Notes under the pieces: generated by a model
Told to the model about the DNA's origin: nothing
The model's input: the letters and a program-made list of their open reading frames with translations, nothing else
The model's database searches: none
Position numbers and translations under genes: made by a program
Source: Pseudomonadota bacterium
GTDB taxonomy: Bacteria; Pseudomonadota; Gammaproteobacteria; Pseudomonadales; Moraxellaceae
Assembly (NCBI GenBank): GCA_021833365.1
Contig: JAKBFV010000010.1
Location: forward strand, 1-47,715
Direction of reading: 5' to 3'
Length of the DNA stretch: 47,715 nt
Shown here: piece by piece, positions 7,757 through 13,042 of the stretch
Layout: each line of letters opens with the position of its first letter
Numbering within the stretch: position 1 is the stretch's first letter

Positions 7757-8074
7757 ATGCTCGTGCCCAAGGACCTCCTCACTGACGCCAAGATCAGAAC
7801 AGCAAAGCCCGCTGATGCCGCCTACAAGCTAGGCGACGGAGGTGGGCTTTCCCTATTGGTCAATGAAACGGGCTCAAGGCTTTGGCGCCTGAAATTCCGC
7901 CTTGGTGGAAAGGAAGGGCTGTTCTCCATCGGTGCCTATCCGGCTGTCGGGCTAGCCGACGCCAGAGCGGCGCAAGATGCCGCCAAAGAGCTGATCAGGT
8001 GCGGCAATTGGGGCAGAACGTTGGCTGGGGCGTGGGCGACGACTTCGACCATTTCTGGTCGGAGGCCGGTTTAG
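7757..8074 (+). pseudogene. P4-type tyrosine integrase, N-terminal fragment
   Basis: The first 80 residues match the arm-DNA-binding DUF4102 domain of P4-like integrases: LLTDAKIRTAKPADAAYKL, then DGGGLSLLV, LWRLKFRLGGKEGLFSIGAYP and the helix LADARAAQDAAKELI. Homology stops at about 7996, after which the frame runs into unrelated sequence and ends at 8074. The core-binding and catalytic domains with the R-H-R-Y residues are entirely absent, so the protein cannot recombine DNA. The break marks a deletion that joined the integrase to the tail of another gene. Confidence 0.75.
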
Positions 8075-8088
8075 CGGGTGAGGAATAA
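7999..8088 (+). pseudogene. Unrecognised C-terminal gene fragment joined to the integrase remnant
   Basis: In a different frame from the integrase, codons ending GWGVGDDFDHFWSEAGLAGEE stop with TAA at 8086-8088, two bases before the ATG of the AlbA_2 gene. The acidic, aromatic composition, the stop and the tight spacing look like the true end of a gene that once preceded and was co-expressed with the AlbA_2 gene. Its 5' part was lost in the deletion at about 7997. I do not recognise the family. Confidence 0.4.
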
Positions 8089-8090
8089 CT

Positions 8091-9629
8091 ATGAGCAAAC
8101 TCCCGATCAATCTCAATGATCTGCTGCGCCAGCGTACGGTCGAGGGCGAGCGCATCGAGTACAAGGCAGGGTGGAATCCAGATGCGATCATCCGTACCGT
8201 GTGCGCATTCGCCAACGACTTCGAAAACCTCGGCAGCGGTTATGTGGTGATCGGGCAGGATTGTGATGCCAATGGCCAACCTGTGTTTCCACCCGTGGGG
8301 TTGGCGGACAGCCAACTGGACAAAATTCAGCAGGAATTGTTGGCCGCCTGCCAGTTGATCCAGCCGCCGTACTTTCCGGTGTTGAGCATTGAGGAAGTAG
8401 AGGGTCGCAAGCTGATCGTGTTGTGGGCACCTGGGGGGCAGAACCGGCCTTACAAAGCGCCGGAAGCCGTCACGGCCAACAAGAAGACGTGGCGCTATTA
8501 CATCCGGCGCTATAGCAGCACGGTCGAGGCCAAGGGCGAGACTGAGCAGGAGTTACTGAGCCTGGCGGCCAAGGTGCCGTTCGATGATCGATACAACCAG
8601 TCGGCACGGATGAATGACCTGTCCAAGCCGTTGATGCAGGCCTTTTTGCAGGAGGTTGGCAGCACGCTGGCTGACGATGCGCCCGGCATGTCGGTCGAGG
8701 CTCTGGCGCGGCAGATGAACGTAGCTGGCGGCACCACAGAATCTCCGTGGCCCAAGAACGTGGGCCTATTGTTTTTCAATGAAACTTCAGAACGATTTTT
8801 CCCAAGCGTGCAGATCGATGTAGTCTGGTTTCCCGAGGGCGCGGGCGGGGACCGCTTCGAGGAAAAAATCTTCAACGGGCCGCTGGCACGGATGACGCGT
8901 GAGGCCTTGAGCTACATCCAACGCAACTACCTGCGCGAGACGATCATCAAACACCCGGACCGCGCAGAGGCCACGCGGGTCTGGAATTTCCCCTACGCCG
9001 CCATCGAGGAAGCCTTGGTCAACGCGGTCTATCACCGCTCCTATGAAGAGCGCGAACCCATAGAAGTGCGCATCAGCAATGAAGAACTGGCCATCTTGAG
9101 CTTCCCCGGCCCGGATCGATCGATTCGGCTGGAAGATTTTCAGGCGGGGCGTGCGGTCAGCCGCCGCTACCGTAATCGGCGGATCGGAGAGTTCCTGAAA
9201 GAACTGCAGATGACCGAAGGGCGCTCCACTGGCATCCCGAAAATTTTGAAGGAAATGGCAGCCAATGGCTCGCCCGCGCCATTATTCGAGACGGACGATG
9301 ACCGCCTCTCGTTCGTGATCCGCCTGCCGCGTCATCCTTTGTCTCTGGCCCCGACCGTTGGTGGGGGGGAAGTCACAGGGGAAGTCACAGGGGAAGTCGA
9401 GCGCCTATTGCGCTCCGTGGATGGCGAGATGTCTCGGCAGCAAATCCAGGCCGCGCTTGGTCTGAAGGGCGAAGAGCACTTCCGGACGGCGTACCTCAAA
9501 CCGGCACTAGTCGCAAAGGTGATTGAGATGACCCTGCCTGATGCGCCCCGAAGCAGTAAGCAGCGTTACCGCCTGACGGCCCTCGGGCAACGCTGGCTGG
9601 ATACACATTCCGGAGGCAATGAACCATGA
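8091..9629 (+). CDS. AlbA_2 (Schlafen-type) DNA-binding / GHKL ATPase-like protein
   Basis: The 512-residue protein opens with an AlbA_2 domain: GERIEYKAGW, then AIIRTVCAFANDFENLGSGYVVIG. The middle (about residues 290-410) resembles the HATPase_c_4 domain, with N-box-like EEALVNAVYHRSYEEREPIE followed by LAILSFPGPDRS and GRSTGIPKILKEM. A duplicated EVTG linker (about residues 424-432) precedes a C-terminal winged helix (LLRSVDGEMSRQQIQAALGL). Proteins of this layout are annotated as ATP-binding transcriptional regulators or RecG-like; several occur in defence and mobile loci. The natural target is unknown. It has a GAGGA ribosome site and lies in the island next to Fic (convergent). Confidence 0.8.
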   Translation: MSKLPINLNDLLRQRTVEGERIEYKAGWNPDAIIRTVCAFANDFENLGSGYVVIGQDCDANGQPVFPPVGLADSQLDKIQQELLAACQLIQPPYFPVLSIEEVEGRKLIVLWAPGGQNRPYKAPEAVTANKKTWRYYIRRYSSTVEAKGETEQELLSLAAKVPFDDRYNQSARMNDLSKPLMQAFLQEVGSTLADDAPGMSVEALARQMNVAGGTTESPWPKNVGLLFFNETSERFFPSVQIDVVWFPEGAGGDRFEEKIFNGPLARMTREALSYIQRNYLRETIIKHPDRAEATRVWNFPYAAIEEALVNAVYHRSYEEREPIEVRISNEELAILSFPGPDRSIRLEDFQAGRAVSRRYRNRRIGEFLKELQMTEGRSTGIPKILKEMAANGSPAPLFETDDDRLSFVIRLPRHPLSLAPTVGGGEVTGEVTGEVERLLRSVDGEMSRQQIQAALGLKGEEHFRTAYLKPALVAKVIEMTLPDAPRSSKQRYRLTALGQRWLDTHSGGNEP

Positions 9630-9723
9630 CTGTTGAGTCACTTCCCAACCTCACCCGCCTCCCCCGGTGTCAGGATAGTTGTCGCCCGCCGCGCGTCGGG
9701 TCAACAGCTAGGCGTAGTACAGG

Positions 9724-10812
9724 CTATGATAAGGCGTCAGCGTCTGTTGCATCAGGTATGCCCCCCGCCTTGACTTGCGACCATTTCGCCCCGCGTCCCT
9801 TTCCTGTTGGGGCGATCACCCCCTCGGCTTTCATGGCGCGCAGGATTACGCGTACCATGTCGCGGCTGATGCCGGGGCAGGCATCCTCGATCTCCGAGAT
9901 GGAGAAGGGCAATTGGCGTTTGAGAATTTCAGAGCGAACGCGGTCGCCCTTGGCGCCACGGCCGCGCTCGATGGTGCCCACGCGCTCTTCAAATTCCTTG
10001 TAGGCACGCAGCAGCGCACCCCAGAAGTAGTCGAGCCACGGGGCGATGTCGTGTGCGGCCTCGTGCCAGTCCTGGGAACTGGCTTCCAGCGTTTCGTAGT
10101 AGCTTTCCTTCGATTCTTCGAAGATGCGCTCCAGGCTGATGAAGCGGCCCACTGCATAGTCGAAGTGATAGAGCAGCTGCAGGGTGAGCAGGCGTGCCAT
10201 GCGGCCGTTGCCATCCGGGAAGGGGTGGATGCACAGGAAGTCGAGGATGGCCAGCGGCACCAGCACCAAGGGGTCTGCCAAGTGCTGATCCAAGGCCAAG
10301 CGGTAGCGCGCGATCAGGTCCGCCATCGCAATGGGGGTGAGGTGCGCCGCGACTGGTCGAAAACGGATGCGCGAGCTGCCATCGGGGTGACGCTCGACGA
10401 TGTCATTGTTGCTGGCCTTCCAGTGCCCGCCTGGTTGCGGCATGTAGCGGTACAGCATGCTGTGCAGCTGCAGGACCGTGCCCTCGGAAAACGGCATTTG
10501 CTCGCCGCTCTCATGGATCAGACTGAGGGCATCGCGATAGCCTGCCACCTCTTGTTCGGAACGGCTTTGCGGCGTGGCATTCTTGAGCACCAATGACTTG
10601 AGCCGGTGCGCGGCGACGACCACGCCTTCCAGGCGGTTCGACGACTCGGTGGACTCGACCACTGCCACTTGCCGCAGGTCGCTCAAGACCTCCGGCGACT
10701 GCGCCACGAAGAGCTGCTGCTTGCCCCTGTACTCACCTAGGGCGCGCAACGTCGCCAGTTGCTGCGCGTCGAAGCGCAGCTTGGCGAGGTAGTCTGGCAA
10801 GAGTGATTGCAT
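9724..10812 (-). CDS. Fic-family protein adenylyltransferase with N-terminal inhibitory helix
   Basis: The active-site signature HPFPDGNGRMARLL is complete (HPFxDGNGRxxR). The histidine activates the target hydroxyl and the GNGR binds ATP phosphates during AMPylation. An inhibitory helix motif [S/T]xxxE[G/N] appears upstream as SNRLEG, so it is a class II Fic with built-in autoinhibition. The C-terminal ~75 residues look like a winged helix (ISEIEDACPGISRDMVRVILRAM), the Fic-HTH architecture. I place the start at 10812 (MQSLLPDYLAKLRFDAQQL). A farther ATG at 10866 would lie among operator-like repeats and adds a poor Cys-rich stretch. The gene is convergent with the AlbA_2 gene, and the 94 bp between them hold no gene. 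Confidence 0.88.
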   Translation of the reverse strand: MQSLLPDYLAKLRFDAQQLATLRALGEYRGKQQLFVAQSPEVLSDLRQVAVVESTESSNRLEGVVVAAHRLKSLVLKNATPQSRSEQEVAGYRDALSLIHESGEQMPFSEGTVLQLHSMLYRYMPQPGGHWKASNNDIVERHPDGSSRIRFRPVAAHLTPIAMADLIARYRLALDQHLADPLVLVPLAILDFLCIHPFPDGNGRMARLLTLQLLYHFDYAVGRFISLERIFEESKESYYETLEASSQDWHEAAHDIAPWLDYFWGALLRAYKEFEERVGTIERGRGAKGDRVRSEILKRQLPFSISEIEDACPGISRDMVRVILRAMKAEGVIAPTGKGRGAKWSQVKAGGIPDATDADALS

Positions 10813-10837
10813 GCAGCAGCATCCGGGTACAAAAGAA

Positions 10838-10906
10838 TGGGGTAATGCTACAGCATATGAGGGCATTCTCGATATTCATTACCCCAATAAAACTGCAATT
10901 ACCCCA
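10838..10906. promoter_or_regulatory. Three TGGGGTAAT boxes upstream of fic
   Basis: TGGGGTAATG at 10838-10847 is matched by a perfect inverted copy CATTACCCCA at 10877-10886. A third copy, ATTACCCCA, lies at 10898-10906. The two copies in the same orientation are 20-21 bp apart (two helical turns), which suits dimers binding one DNA face. They lie directly upstream of the fic start. The Fic protein's own winged helix is the obvious candidate ligand (inference). Confidence 0.5.
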
Positions 10907-11004: not shown

Positions 11005-11146
11005 TTGACACAGGAGGGTGCGGATAATTTCTTGGACTTGTTGACGTCGTTAACCCCAAGTGCTCACGGTACTCGATGGGACTGCGATAGCCAAGAGAGC
11101 TCTTGATCCGCTTCTCGTTGTACCACCGCATGATCGCTCGCGGCAG
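11005..11146 (-). pseudogene. IS3-family transposase, C-terminal fragment
   Basis: The segment reads PRAIMRWYNEKRIKSSLGYR, then SPIEYREHLGL, the characteristic end of IS3-family OrfB integrase-core transposases. Upstream in this frame a TAG lies at once beyond position 11146, and nothing of the DDE catalytic core is left. The downstream residues run into the 14-bp repeats, suggesting that the IS end is near 11005. The whole 343-bp gap between fic and hipB is thus operator boxes, repeats, this scrap and the hipB promoter. Confidence 0.7.
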
Positions 11147-11192: not shown

Positions 11193-11230
11193 GGCACTTA
11201 TGTAATTTTTTGGCGTTAAGGGTCATAAAA

Positions 11231-11542
11231 GTGACTTTTAATCTCTCGACTTCCGCTGAAATCCTGCACGCGCTGGGTGTTCGTCTGCGCGAGCAGCGGC
11301 TTGCCCAATCGCTGACGCAGCGTGAACTGGCGCAAATGGCCGGACTGTCGCTGGGGGCATTGCGCAAACTCGAAAGCGACGGCCAGTGCTCCCTAGAAAC
11401 GCTGGTCCGCGTCGCGCAGGCACTGGGCTTGCTGGAGGCGCTGGACGATCTCTTCGTGCTCAAACGGCAATCCATCGCCCAGATGGAGCAGGTGGATCTG
11501 GTGAGCCGCCGCCAGCGTGCGCCACGTAAGAGAACATCATGA
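11231..11542 (+). CDS. hipB: HipB-like antitoxin, XRE-family DNA-binding protein
   Basis: The 103-residue protein has a Cro/C1-type helix-turn-helix: LREQRLAQSLTQRELAQMAG, then LSLGALRKLESDGQCSLETL. In hipBA modules the antitoxin dimer binds operator DNA and holds the HipA kinase in an inactive complex. I choose the GTG at 11231 because AAGGG lies eight bases upstream; a TTG at 11210 is possible but has no ribosome site. The stop overlaps the hipA start (ATGA). The C-terminal tail RRQRAPRKRTS is basic and probably flexible. Confidence 0.85.
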   Translation: MTFNLSTSAEILHALGVRLREQRLAQSLTQRELAQMAGLSLGALRKLESDGQCSLETLVRVAQALGLLEALDDLFVLKRQSIAQMEQVDLVSRRQRAPRKRTS

Positions 11543-12762
11543 AGCTGCTGACCGTACATTATTGCGGTTGGGGAGAAGACTGGCCGTTGGGACGGTTGGC
11601 CGATGACGGTCAATCCCTGCTCTTCGAATATTCTCCCGAAGCCCTGTCTCAGGGCCTGGAACTGTCGCCCTTGCACCTCAAGCTGCGTGCAGATGCCTAC
11701 GGCAGTTTTCCGACCCATTTGCATCGCCTTCCGGGCCTGATCGCCGACAGTCTGCCGGATGGCTGGGGTTTGCTGCTGATGGATCGCCTATTCCGTCAAC
11801 ACGGCTTGCGCCATCCCGGACCCCTGGACCGGCTGGCCTTCATTGGTGAGCGCGCGATGGGCGCGTTACGCTTCGTTCCGGCAAGCGACGCCGGCATCCG
11901 GGAGCCCGACTGGTCCTTGCTGGCGCTGGCCAAACAAAGCCGTCTCGCGCTCGCCGGCGCGGCGGAGGCAGCCCTGCGCGAGCTCGCGCTCACCGGCAGC
12001 TCACCGCAAGGGGCTCGACCCAAGGCCTTGGTGCAGTATGACGCAACGACCGGGCAGGTCAGCACCCGTCCAGATGCGCCCGGCAGTCCTTGGCTGGTCA
12101 AGTTCCCGGCGCAGAACGAACACAAGGAGGTCTGCGTCATCGAGCAGCTCTATGCCGAGTTGGCTCGTGATTGCGGACTGGATATGCCCGAAAGTCGCTG
12201 GTTCGACCTTGGCCATGAACTGGCCGCCTTCGGCGTCGTGCGCTTCGACCGGGAGGGTGGGCAACGCGTCCCGGTGCACAGTCTGGCTGGATTGTTGCAG
12301 GTGGATTTTCGCCTGCCCGGTGCCACCGACTACACCGCCTTCCTGCGGGCTACCCGCTTCCTGACGCGCGACGAGCGCGAAGTCGAGAAAGCCTACGCGC
12401 GAGCAGTCTTCAATGTGCTCTTCCACAACCGTGACGACCATCCCAAGAACTTCGCGTGGCGTCTCGGGCCTGACCGGCGCTGGCGTCTGGCACCGGCATT
12501 CGACCTGACCTTCAGCGAAGGCCCGATGGGCCAGCATCACCTGGACGTTTGCGGCGAAGGTGCCGTCATCGAACGCCGGCATCTATTGCGTCTGGCGGAG
12601 GAAGGTGGCGTCGCAACGAAACGGGCGGAGGAGGTCATCGACCGGATGTTGCTGCAGGCAAGCTCATTAGGTGAGCGATTTGAGCGTGCTCCGATTAGGC
12701 AGATGCTGGTGCAGCAGATAAAATCCACCATTGATGCCTGCCGCTGGCGCCTGGAAAGCTGA
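11539..12762 (+). CDS. hipA: HipA-like serine/threonine kinase toxin
   Basis: HipA kinases phosphorylate aminoacyl-tRNA synthetases (GltX in E. coli) and cause growth arrest and persistence. The 407 residues carry the N-terminal HipA block LPGLIADSLPDGWGLLLMDR and a P-loop-like segment TGSSPQGARPKALV. The catalytic loop is NRDDHPKNF (D and N of the NxDDHxKN pattern), and LAPAFDL provides the metal-binding aspartate. All key kinase residues are present, so the toxin should be active. The serine pair in the GSSPQG loop matches the region autophosphorylated in E. coli HipA. Translation is coupled to hipB. The protein target here is unknown. Confidence 0.9.
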   Translation: MKLLTVHYCGWGEDWPLGRLADDGQSLLFEYSPEALSQGLELSPLHLKLRADAYGSFPTHLHRLPGLIADSLPDGWGLLLMDRLFRQHGLRHPGPLDRLAFIGERAMGALRFVPASDAGIREPDWSLLALAKQSRLALAGAAEAALRELALTGSSPQGARPKALVQYDATTGQVSTRPDAPGSPWLVKFPAQNEHKEVCVIEQLYAELARDCGLDMPESRWFDLGHELAAFGVVRFDREGGQRVPVHSLAGLLQVDFRLPGATDYTAFLRATRFLTRDEREVEKAYARAVFNVLFHNRDDHPKNFAWRLGPDRRWRLAPAFDLTFSEGPMGQHHLDVCGEGAVIERRHLLRLAEEGGVATKRAEEVIDRMLLQASSLGERFERAPIRQMLVQQIKSTIDACRWRLES

Positions 12763-12793
12763 ATCCGAGATCGTGTCCCAGGAAGTGGTGTAA

Positions 12794-13042
12794 CAGAAGT
12801 TCATCCAGGAAGGTCGGGGCTATGTGACCTGGAATGAGCTGAACCTTGACCTATCCAAGCTGCAGCAGCGCGGCGAGTTGACCGCTGAAATGACCCAGCG
12901 CCACCTGGAGGCCAAGCCCAAGGCTGTACTGAACTGGGTCAGTCAGGTCTGGCCCTTCGCCCACGAGATGCAGTGCAGAAAGGCCGAAGGCGCCAGAGAA
13001 AACAGGATGAGAAAGCCACTCGTGCGTGGGATCAGCCAATAA
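12794..13042 (+). other. Unrecognised open segment, probable gene remnant
   Basis: An open frame follows a TAA at 12791 and reads QKFIQEGRGYVTWNELNLDL and onward to WPFAHEMQ. A GTG at 12824 could start it, but there is no good ribosome site. Reading upstream of the TAA in the same frame stays plausible (EIVSQEVV), so it could be a longer gene broken by one stop. After 12990 the frame enters the 46-bp repeat copied from the efflux gene, where the original end is lost. I do not recognise the family. Confidence 0.3.
12991..13036. repeat. 46-bp direct repeat, left copy
   Basis: It matches 14884-14929 at 44 of 46 positions, in the same orientation. In the right copy the segment encodes part of the last membrane helix of the efflux protein (TSGFLILFSLA on the minus strand). 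The left copy still reads L-I-P-R-TSGFLILFSLA but is cut on both sides. The homology stops exactly where the SDR stop codon region begins. Confidence 0.85.

Follow-up and report, generated by a model that had tools for sequence, protein, structure and literature searches.

We consider it probable that the 512-residue protein encoded in the window, here called P0001 and related to the antiviral Schlafen proteins of animals, is a portable Schlafen-type accessory of defense loci, whose upstream partner is exchanged and which serves as a back-up tRNase-like effector or as a regulator. The window is the whole stretch of DNA that was analyzed, 47,715 nucleotides from a member of the Moraxellaceae. 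In it the Schlafen gene has lost a DUF6155-like neighbor from its upstream side; this loss is real, but the lost gene is one among many interchangeable neighbors. The features on which the argument draws are as follows:

7757..7993, + strand: N-terminal remnant of an integrase, about 79 codons, with an Arm-DNA-bind_3 domain (Pfam PF13356, E 1.8e-19)
7999..8088, + strand: 3' remnant of a DUF6155-like gene, 29 codons and stop; the tail is shared with loci L002, L004, L049, and L066
8091..9629, + strand: intact gene for P0001, a Schlafen(AlbA_2)-HATPase-winged-helix protein of 512 aa (open reading frame, with homologues in 80 loci)
8142..8531, + strand: SLFN_AlbA_2 domain of P0001, residues 18-147 (Pfam E 3.3e-11)
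9057..9314, + strand: HATPase_c_4 (GHKL-like) domain of P0001, residues 323-408 (Pfam E 5.4e-11)
9393..9578, + strand: Fic-like_C winged helix of P0001, residues 435-496 (Pfam E 1.2e-23)
9626..9667, + strand: probable 5' remnant of a gene for a two-CxxC protein, about 14 codons (35 bp matched to L004 at 83%, E 1.5e-4)

An upstream and a probable downstream remnant of former neighbors of the Schlafen gene

The Schlafen gene in the window still has some 90 bases of an earlier upstream neighbor, which is DUF6155-like. The frame of this tail closes with a TAA stop at 8086-8088, followed by CT and then by the ATG of P0001 at 8091, as had been noticed from the sequence itself, and its 29 residues agree with the C-termini of the ORFs preceding the Schlafen homologue at 28/29 positions in L004, 27/29 in L049, and 25/29 in L002. 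In these three loci and in L066, the DUF6155-like ORF is of full length (182-196 aa) and is set off from the Schlafen gene by the same 2-bp gap. The tail is not a chance frame, and the sequence-only reading was right that an upstream partner has been lost here and that other genomes keep the arrangement intact. DNA homology of the window begins at 7993 against L002 and L004 and at 7998 against L049 and L066; the first ~150 codons of the DUF6155-like gene are missing, and in their place stands the integrase fragment (7757-7993), fused directly to the tail. Residues 3-79 of that fragment find a 53% match in a plasmid integrase. The upstream ORF has a weak similarity to Pfam DUF6155 (PF19652; E 0.017, with a score of 15.4 bits where the cut-off is 27) and matches at 27-29% plasmid proteins that carry the DUF6155 annotation; as its score falls below the cut-off, we call it DUF6155-like. 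A literature search on DUF6155 found no paper. Structure prediction from four similar sequences gave a model composed entirely of helices with a mean pLDDT of 58, which made it unfit for structure searches, and it was dropped as a query.

In L002 and L004, the gene after the Schlafen homologue encodes a protein of 75-76 aa with two CxxC pairs, and L009 and L031 have at this position a protein matched across 74 residues. About 14 codons in the window resemble the start of this two-CxxC gene, after which the likeness ends. Judging from this similarity, the window probably retains some 40 bases of a two-CxxC gene that once followed downstream, a scar weaker than the upstream tail. L025 carries a two-CxxC remnant of 34-35 residues. 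Comparison of the two-CxxC protein with Pfam gave weak matches to HypA and DUF5679, both below cut-off. A former HsdR behind P0001, guessed from the downstream start sequence, was discarded, the ORF at this place in L002 and L004 being the 75-76-aa two-CxxC protein. Start remnants of HsdR do lie behind the Schlafen gene in three other loci, L026, L037, and L045 (of which L045 has an MmeI-type gene upstream), and they resemble the window's scars in kind.

Domain architecture of P0001

The three Pfam domains of P0001 (SLFN_AlbA_2, HATPase_c_4, and Fic-like_C) all exceed their curated cut-offs, with SLFN_AlbA_2 at 44.2 bits against 25.3. These matches and an AlphaFold2 model (mean pLDDT 81.6, pTM 0.53) confirm the AlbA_2, GHKL-like, and winged-helix domains that had been read from the translation. 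Searches of NCBIfam returned no family for P0001, and those of Pfam no Fic domain. The model resembles the tRNase domain of SAMD9 (Z 12.1, rmsd 3.5 over 156 residues), its region 238-421 has structural matches to histidine-kinase ATPases and SpoIIAB, and its residues ~428-512 match MarR-type winged helices; Foldseek additionally relates it to human SLFN11 (E 3.6e-3). The SAMD9, kinase, and winged-helix matches of this predicted model point to a likeness of fold, and the functions that they suggest are putative.

According to the available part of PMC5862951, the active site of SLFN13 is formed by three acidic residues (E, E, and D). P0001 shares with the rat protein the spacing of the two glutamates: E18 and E23, present in 48/48 aligned homologues, have the five-residue spacing of E205 and E210. 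Residue 59, a candidate for the third position picked by rough spacing, is acidic in all 48 (D in 40, E in 8). In the HATPase region, E307, N311, G340, T380, and G381 are likewise found in 48/48 aligned homologues. GHKL domains usually carry glycine motifs; these are altered in the alignment of P0001 homologues, and ATP binding by P0001 is therefore not assured. The linker before the winged helix (window 9363-9400) consists of four-residue tandem repeats (TGEV, TPQV, TEQV, IHDT), seen as 12-bp repeats in the DNA of the window, and the repeat number varies between homologues.

Probable exchange of upstream partners

Six peptide patterns were used to find homologous loci, and 80 were kept of 145 confirmed relatives, so the sample leans toward close relatives; many of the loci come from metagenome assemblies. 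Their genes were called with a simple in-house caller that missed some, such as the HsdS of L038. Directly upstream of the Schlafen gene lie HsdS (L024, L027, L038, L044, L065, L068, and L077), McrC (L003, L009, L014, and L018), HerA (L041, L057, and L060), and a range of other partners, namely, Dsr1 (L011), Cas3f (L012), PtuB (L015), YhcG (L040), an MmeI-type IIG enzyme (L045), PDC-S14 (L042), PDC-S06 (L051), PDC-M05A (L052), a type I methyltransferase (L059), and PrimPol (L032); NERD is also among the upstream partners recognized by Pfam or PADLOC. Other upstream genes are by these scans unrelated to defense: AbrB-type (L043 and L047), glycosyltransferase (L073 and L076), phosphatase (L025), Hsp70 (L013), and FMN oxidoreductase (L063). 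The HsdS labels of L024, L044, L068, and L077 derive from clustering with genes that PADLOC or Pfam had confirmed; those of L060 (HerA), L047 (AbrB), L076 (glycosyltransferase), and L081 (YgjP-type) derive from likeness to scanned relatives; and those of L050 and L010 derive from matches below the Pfam cut-off. With HsdS, McrC, Dsr1, PtuB, Cas3, HerA, MmeI-type, YhcG, and further genes in this position, the homologues have no conserved upstream neighbor, an outcome that the sequence-only reading had itself named as its refutation. Coupling to the upstream gene is frequently close: 27 of the 64 called same-strand upstream genes (at least 80 aa) lie at -10 to 20 bp.

The link to defense that had been suspected holds for the many homologues with a defense gene directly upstream, but some neighbors are nondefense genes and the statistical contrast is suggestive. 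PADLOC models were matched at E<=1e-10 by no fewer than 12 of the 38 proteins encoded immediately upstream; the 38 are all 44 such proteins minus six HsdS, and the 12 comprise 10 from per-protein scans, to which the tally adds a third HerA member and a second MTase_I member. In a control set of 56 genes, each 7 kb or more away, 36 PADLOC models were matched, never two genes by one model, and two control names (PDC-S05 and PDC-S23) appear among the 25 models listed. The control matches most likely represent two genes, and since the tally does not fix the control gene number, the contrast between upstream and control genes is suggestive only.

On a tree of 81 protein rows built by a quick method, HsdS, McrC, and HerA are each scattered: HsdS (7 rows) requires 7 changes, McrC (4 rows) 4, HerA (3 rows) 3, and DUF6155-like (5 rows, window included) 4, and AbrB and glycosyltransferase (two rows each) form single clades. 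All partner labels together, with 42 of the 81 rows labeled "other" for having no assigned partner, partly because they were unscanned, require 35 changes where shuffling gives a mean of 38.3, which indicates slight clustering of partners on the tree. Among 18 loci that we chose from the 80, the homologous DNA starts within -30 to +10 of the ATG in 130/146 different-partner pairs, with 7 same-partner pairs excluded and unlabeled loci treated as differing from all. The 16 exceptions include at least seven listed pairs that involve L056, whose contig starts inside the gene, and two with L018 at offsets of -33 and -47. The upstream partner differs even between Schlafen copies that are ~85-90% identical in DNA. 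Terminal sequences such as the copies of a mobile cassette would share were considered and none was seen, the flank matches between loci with different partners being short and few of them upstream; nor did these flanks reveal any conserved sequence that would show how the Schlafen gene moves.

The DUF6155-like gene as one partner among many

It is quite improbable, in our estimate, that the DUF6155-like and Schlafen proteins form a dedicated two- or three-gene defense or toxin-antitoxin module that happens to be broken in the window. In its favor, the identical order and 2-bp gap recur in L002, L004, L049, and L066, whose records name different families or genera (L004 and L049 are metagenome assemblies and L066 is a cultured strain), and L002 and L004 have the two-CxxC gene in common as a third member. 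Yet these are the only 4 of 80 loci with a DUF6155-like gene beside the Schlafen gene, and L049 and L066 are near-identical (99.7% over 2247 bp). Moreover, 3 of the 4 have an interrupted Schlafen gene, broken by a stop in L004 and by frame changes at different places in L049 and L066, against 6 of the 76 other loci (Fisher p 0.004; treating L049 and L066 as one locus gives 0.026).

The DUF6155-like gene also keeps other company. It directly precedes an AEP-TOTE primase-helicase in six loci, recognized by Pfam in L101 and L102 and by the look of the N-terminus in L103, L139, L140, and L141, and it precedes a TacA-like gene in two: on contig C58 of the window's own genome, where the listed frames include no open GNAT frame beside the TacA-like antitoxin gene, and in one same-genus genome, where a GNAT gene is also present. 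L104 and L105 (DUF6155-like, at least 45% identity) and L142 (44%) have neither a TOTE nor a TacA-like neighbor. These other neighbors and the 4/80 count rule out the DUF6155-like gene as the sole partner of the Schlafen gene. The Schlafen frame in the window is intact with no adjoining DUF6155-like gene, which argues that the DUF6155-like protein is not a needed antitoxin, although a full DUF6155-like copy elsewhere in the same genome makes protection in trans possible; the genome holds, in addition, a second 3' remnant of the gene in front of a Fic gene. The gene is uncommon, occurring in 5/390 genomes of the order (single-protein search) and 13/369 of the class (alignment search), counts in which the window's genome and one other of its genus are included. 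A pattern search of viral contigs gave 11 matches, of which 0 were confirmed as relatives. The former two-gene system posited from the window thus stands as far as the lost upstream gene and its intact counterparts in 4/80 loci are concerned, and is not supported as a fixed pair. The case also cautions that a short distance to the upstream gene, conserved in a few genomes, does not on its own make a two-gene system.

Parallels and possible function

The domain order of P0001, Schlafen followed by a minimal histidine-kinase ATPase and a wHTH, is the architecture described in PMC12839542. The available part of that paper connects Schlafen RNases that carry a minimal histidine kinase and a wHTH as fusions with BREX and BREX-related loci, across 1017 taxa or more, and counts them among back-up effectors. 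The architecture is already known beside BREX; the present analysis adds the wide range of partners and the scars, which suggest exchange. The P0001 family shares with those proteins the close linkage to defense loci but differs in its neighbors, which here are type I R-M, McrBC, SIR2, HerA, Septu, and others. With SLFN13 (PMC5862951) and SAMD9/SAMD9L (PMC11221667; PDB 9o0d and 7ksp, Z 12.1 and 11.8), as far as the accessible text of these papers goes, P0001 shares the AlbA_2 fold, and it differs from them in that its AlbA_2 domain shares one protein with a GHKL-like domain and a winged helix.

The PDB relatives of P0001 are filed only as RecG-related or uncharacterized. DIP2311 of Corynebacterium diphtheriae (PDB 3lmm, uncharacterized) matches residues 4-417 of the model (Z 21.2 over 355 residues, whole rmsd 14.0), and a RecG-related N-terminal domain (2kyy) matches 133 residues of the N-terminal part at Z 11.7, both at a low sequence identity of 16-29%. 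The winged helix is closest to the C-terminal one of the Fic protein Dde_2494 (4rgl; Z 12.5, rmsd 1.2, 71 residues, 45% identity), from which P0001 differs in being without a Fic domain. P0001 also matches the PADLOC pAgo model (E 1.9e-17, residues 31-404), in keeping with the Schlafen AlbA_2 domains that occur in some long pAgos and pAgo operons in the available text of PMC6299218; since positions 55-428 of 1121 are covered, this is not a match to the whole pAgo model.

Based on the acidic residues of AlbA_2, the fold matches, and the standing of such Schlafen RNases as back-up effectors in the available part of PMC12839542, we favor a role of P0001 as a back-up effector. Close relatives of its gene lie directly behind varied and unrelated genes, many of them for defense, and differ in their upstream partner; the ATPase and winged-helix parts might sense an infection signal or the failure of the neighboring system, whereupon a tRNase-like activity would be released and translation would stop. 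P0001 may also regulate its own operon. The main rival is that it is chiefly a transcriptional regulator, in which AlbA_2 binds nucleic acid and the winged helix reads DNA to switch its own operon. The MarR-like winged helix and the frequent close coupling to upstream genes are consistent with this. However, the acidic residues of the putative Schlafen-type active site are kept in 48/48 homologues, and at the loci that were closely inspected the gene is not the first of its operon: it lies between hsdS and hsdR in L027 (hsdM-hsdS-Schlafen-hsdR-YgjP) and behind mcrC in L003. We rate a mainly regulatory role as rather unlikely.

More tentatively, and with considerable doubt, we raise the possibility that Schlafen-HATPase-wHTH genes are general plug-in guards, that is, single ORFs repeatedly joined start-to-stop codon behind any defense operon and firing when the system is inhibited, the two scars of the window then recording one such exchange. 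If one Schlafen gene does serve many unrelated defense systems, it would offer a general test of the back-up-effector idea, with the prediction that the Schlafen protein acts when the primary system is blocked.

Surroundings of the gene in the window

Within the window itself, P0001 is not linked to a core defense locus, the integrase remnant lying upstream and Fic and HipBA genes downstream. The site behind ychF (window 7570) is variable among relatives, and in G001 and G019 homology goes no further than the stop of ychF; cas1/cas2 were recognized by eye behind ychF in G019. The locus might be inert debris, with the gene left as an orphan amid deletions at this variable site: its upstream neighbor and the integrase are truncated, the downstream neighbor probably so, an IS3-type remnant is nearby, and the two same-genus genomes searched hold no copy of the Schlafen gene. 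The 512-codon frame is nevertheless unbroken, and the protein is 94% identical to its nearest relatives, so we consider debris possible but doubtful. Judging by the unbroken frame alone, our guess is that the orphan copy still acts.

Downstream of P0001, a SoFic-like Fic gene (window 9724-10866, - strand) matches a gene of an Acidovorax plasmid (NZ_AP029020.1) at 93% identity across 1110 bp. Close to it is a HipB-like and HipA-like gene pair (11210-12762), near which the IS3-type integrase remnant lies (~11060-11131, - strand). A run of 28 identical bases, perhaps an IS end, is found at window 12769-12796 and at positions 607-634 of contig C93 of the same genome (G000), where the copy is near an ORF that, judged by eye, resembles a transposase end.
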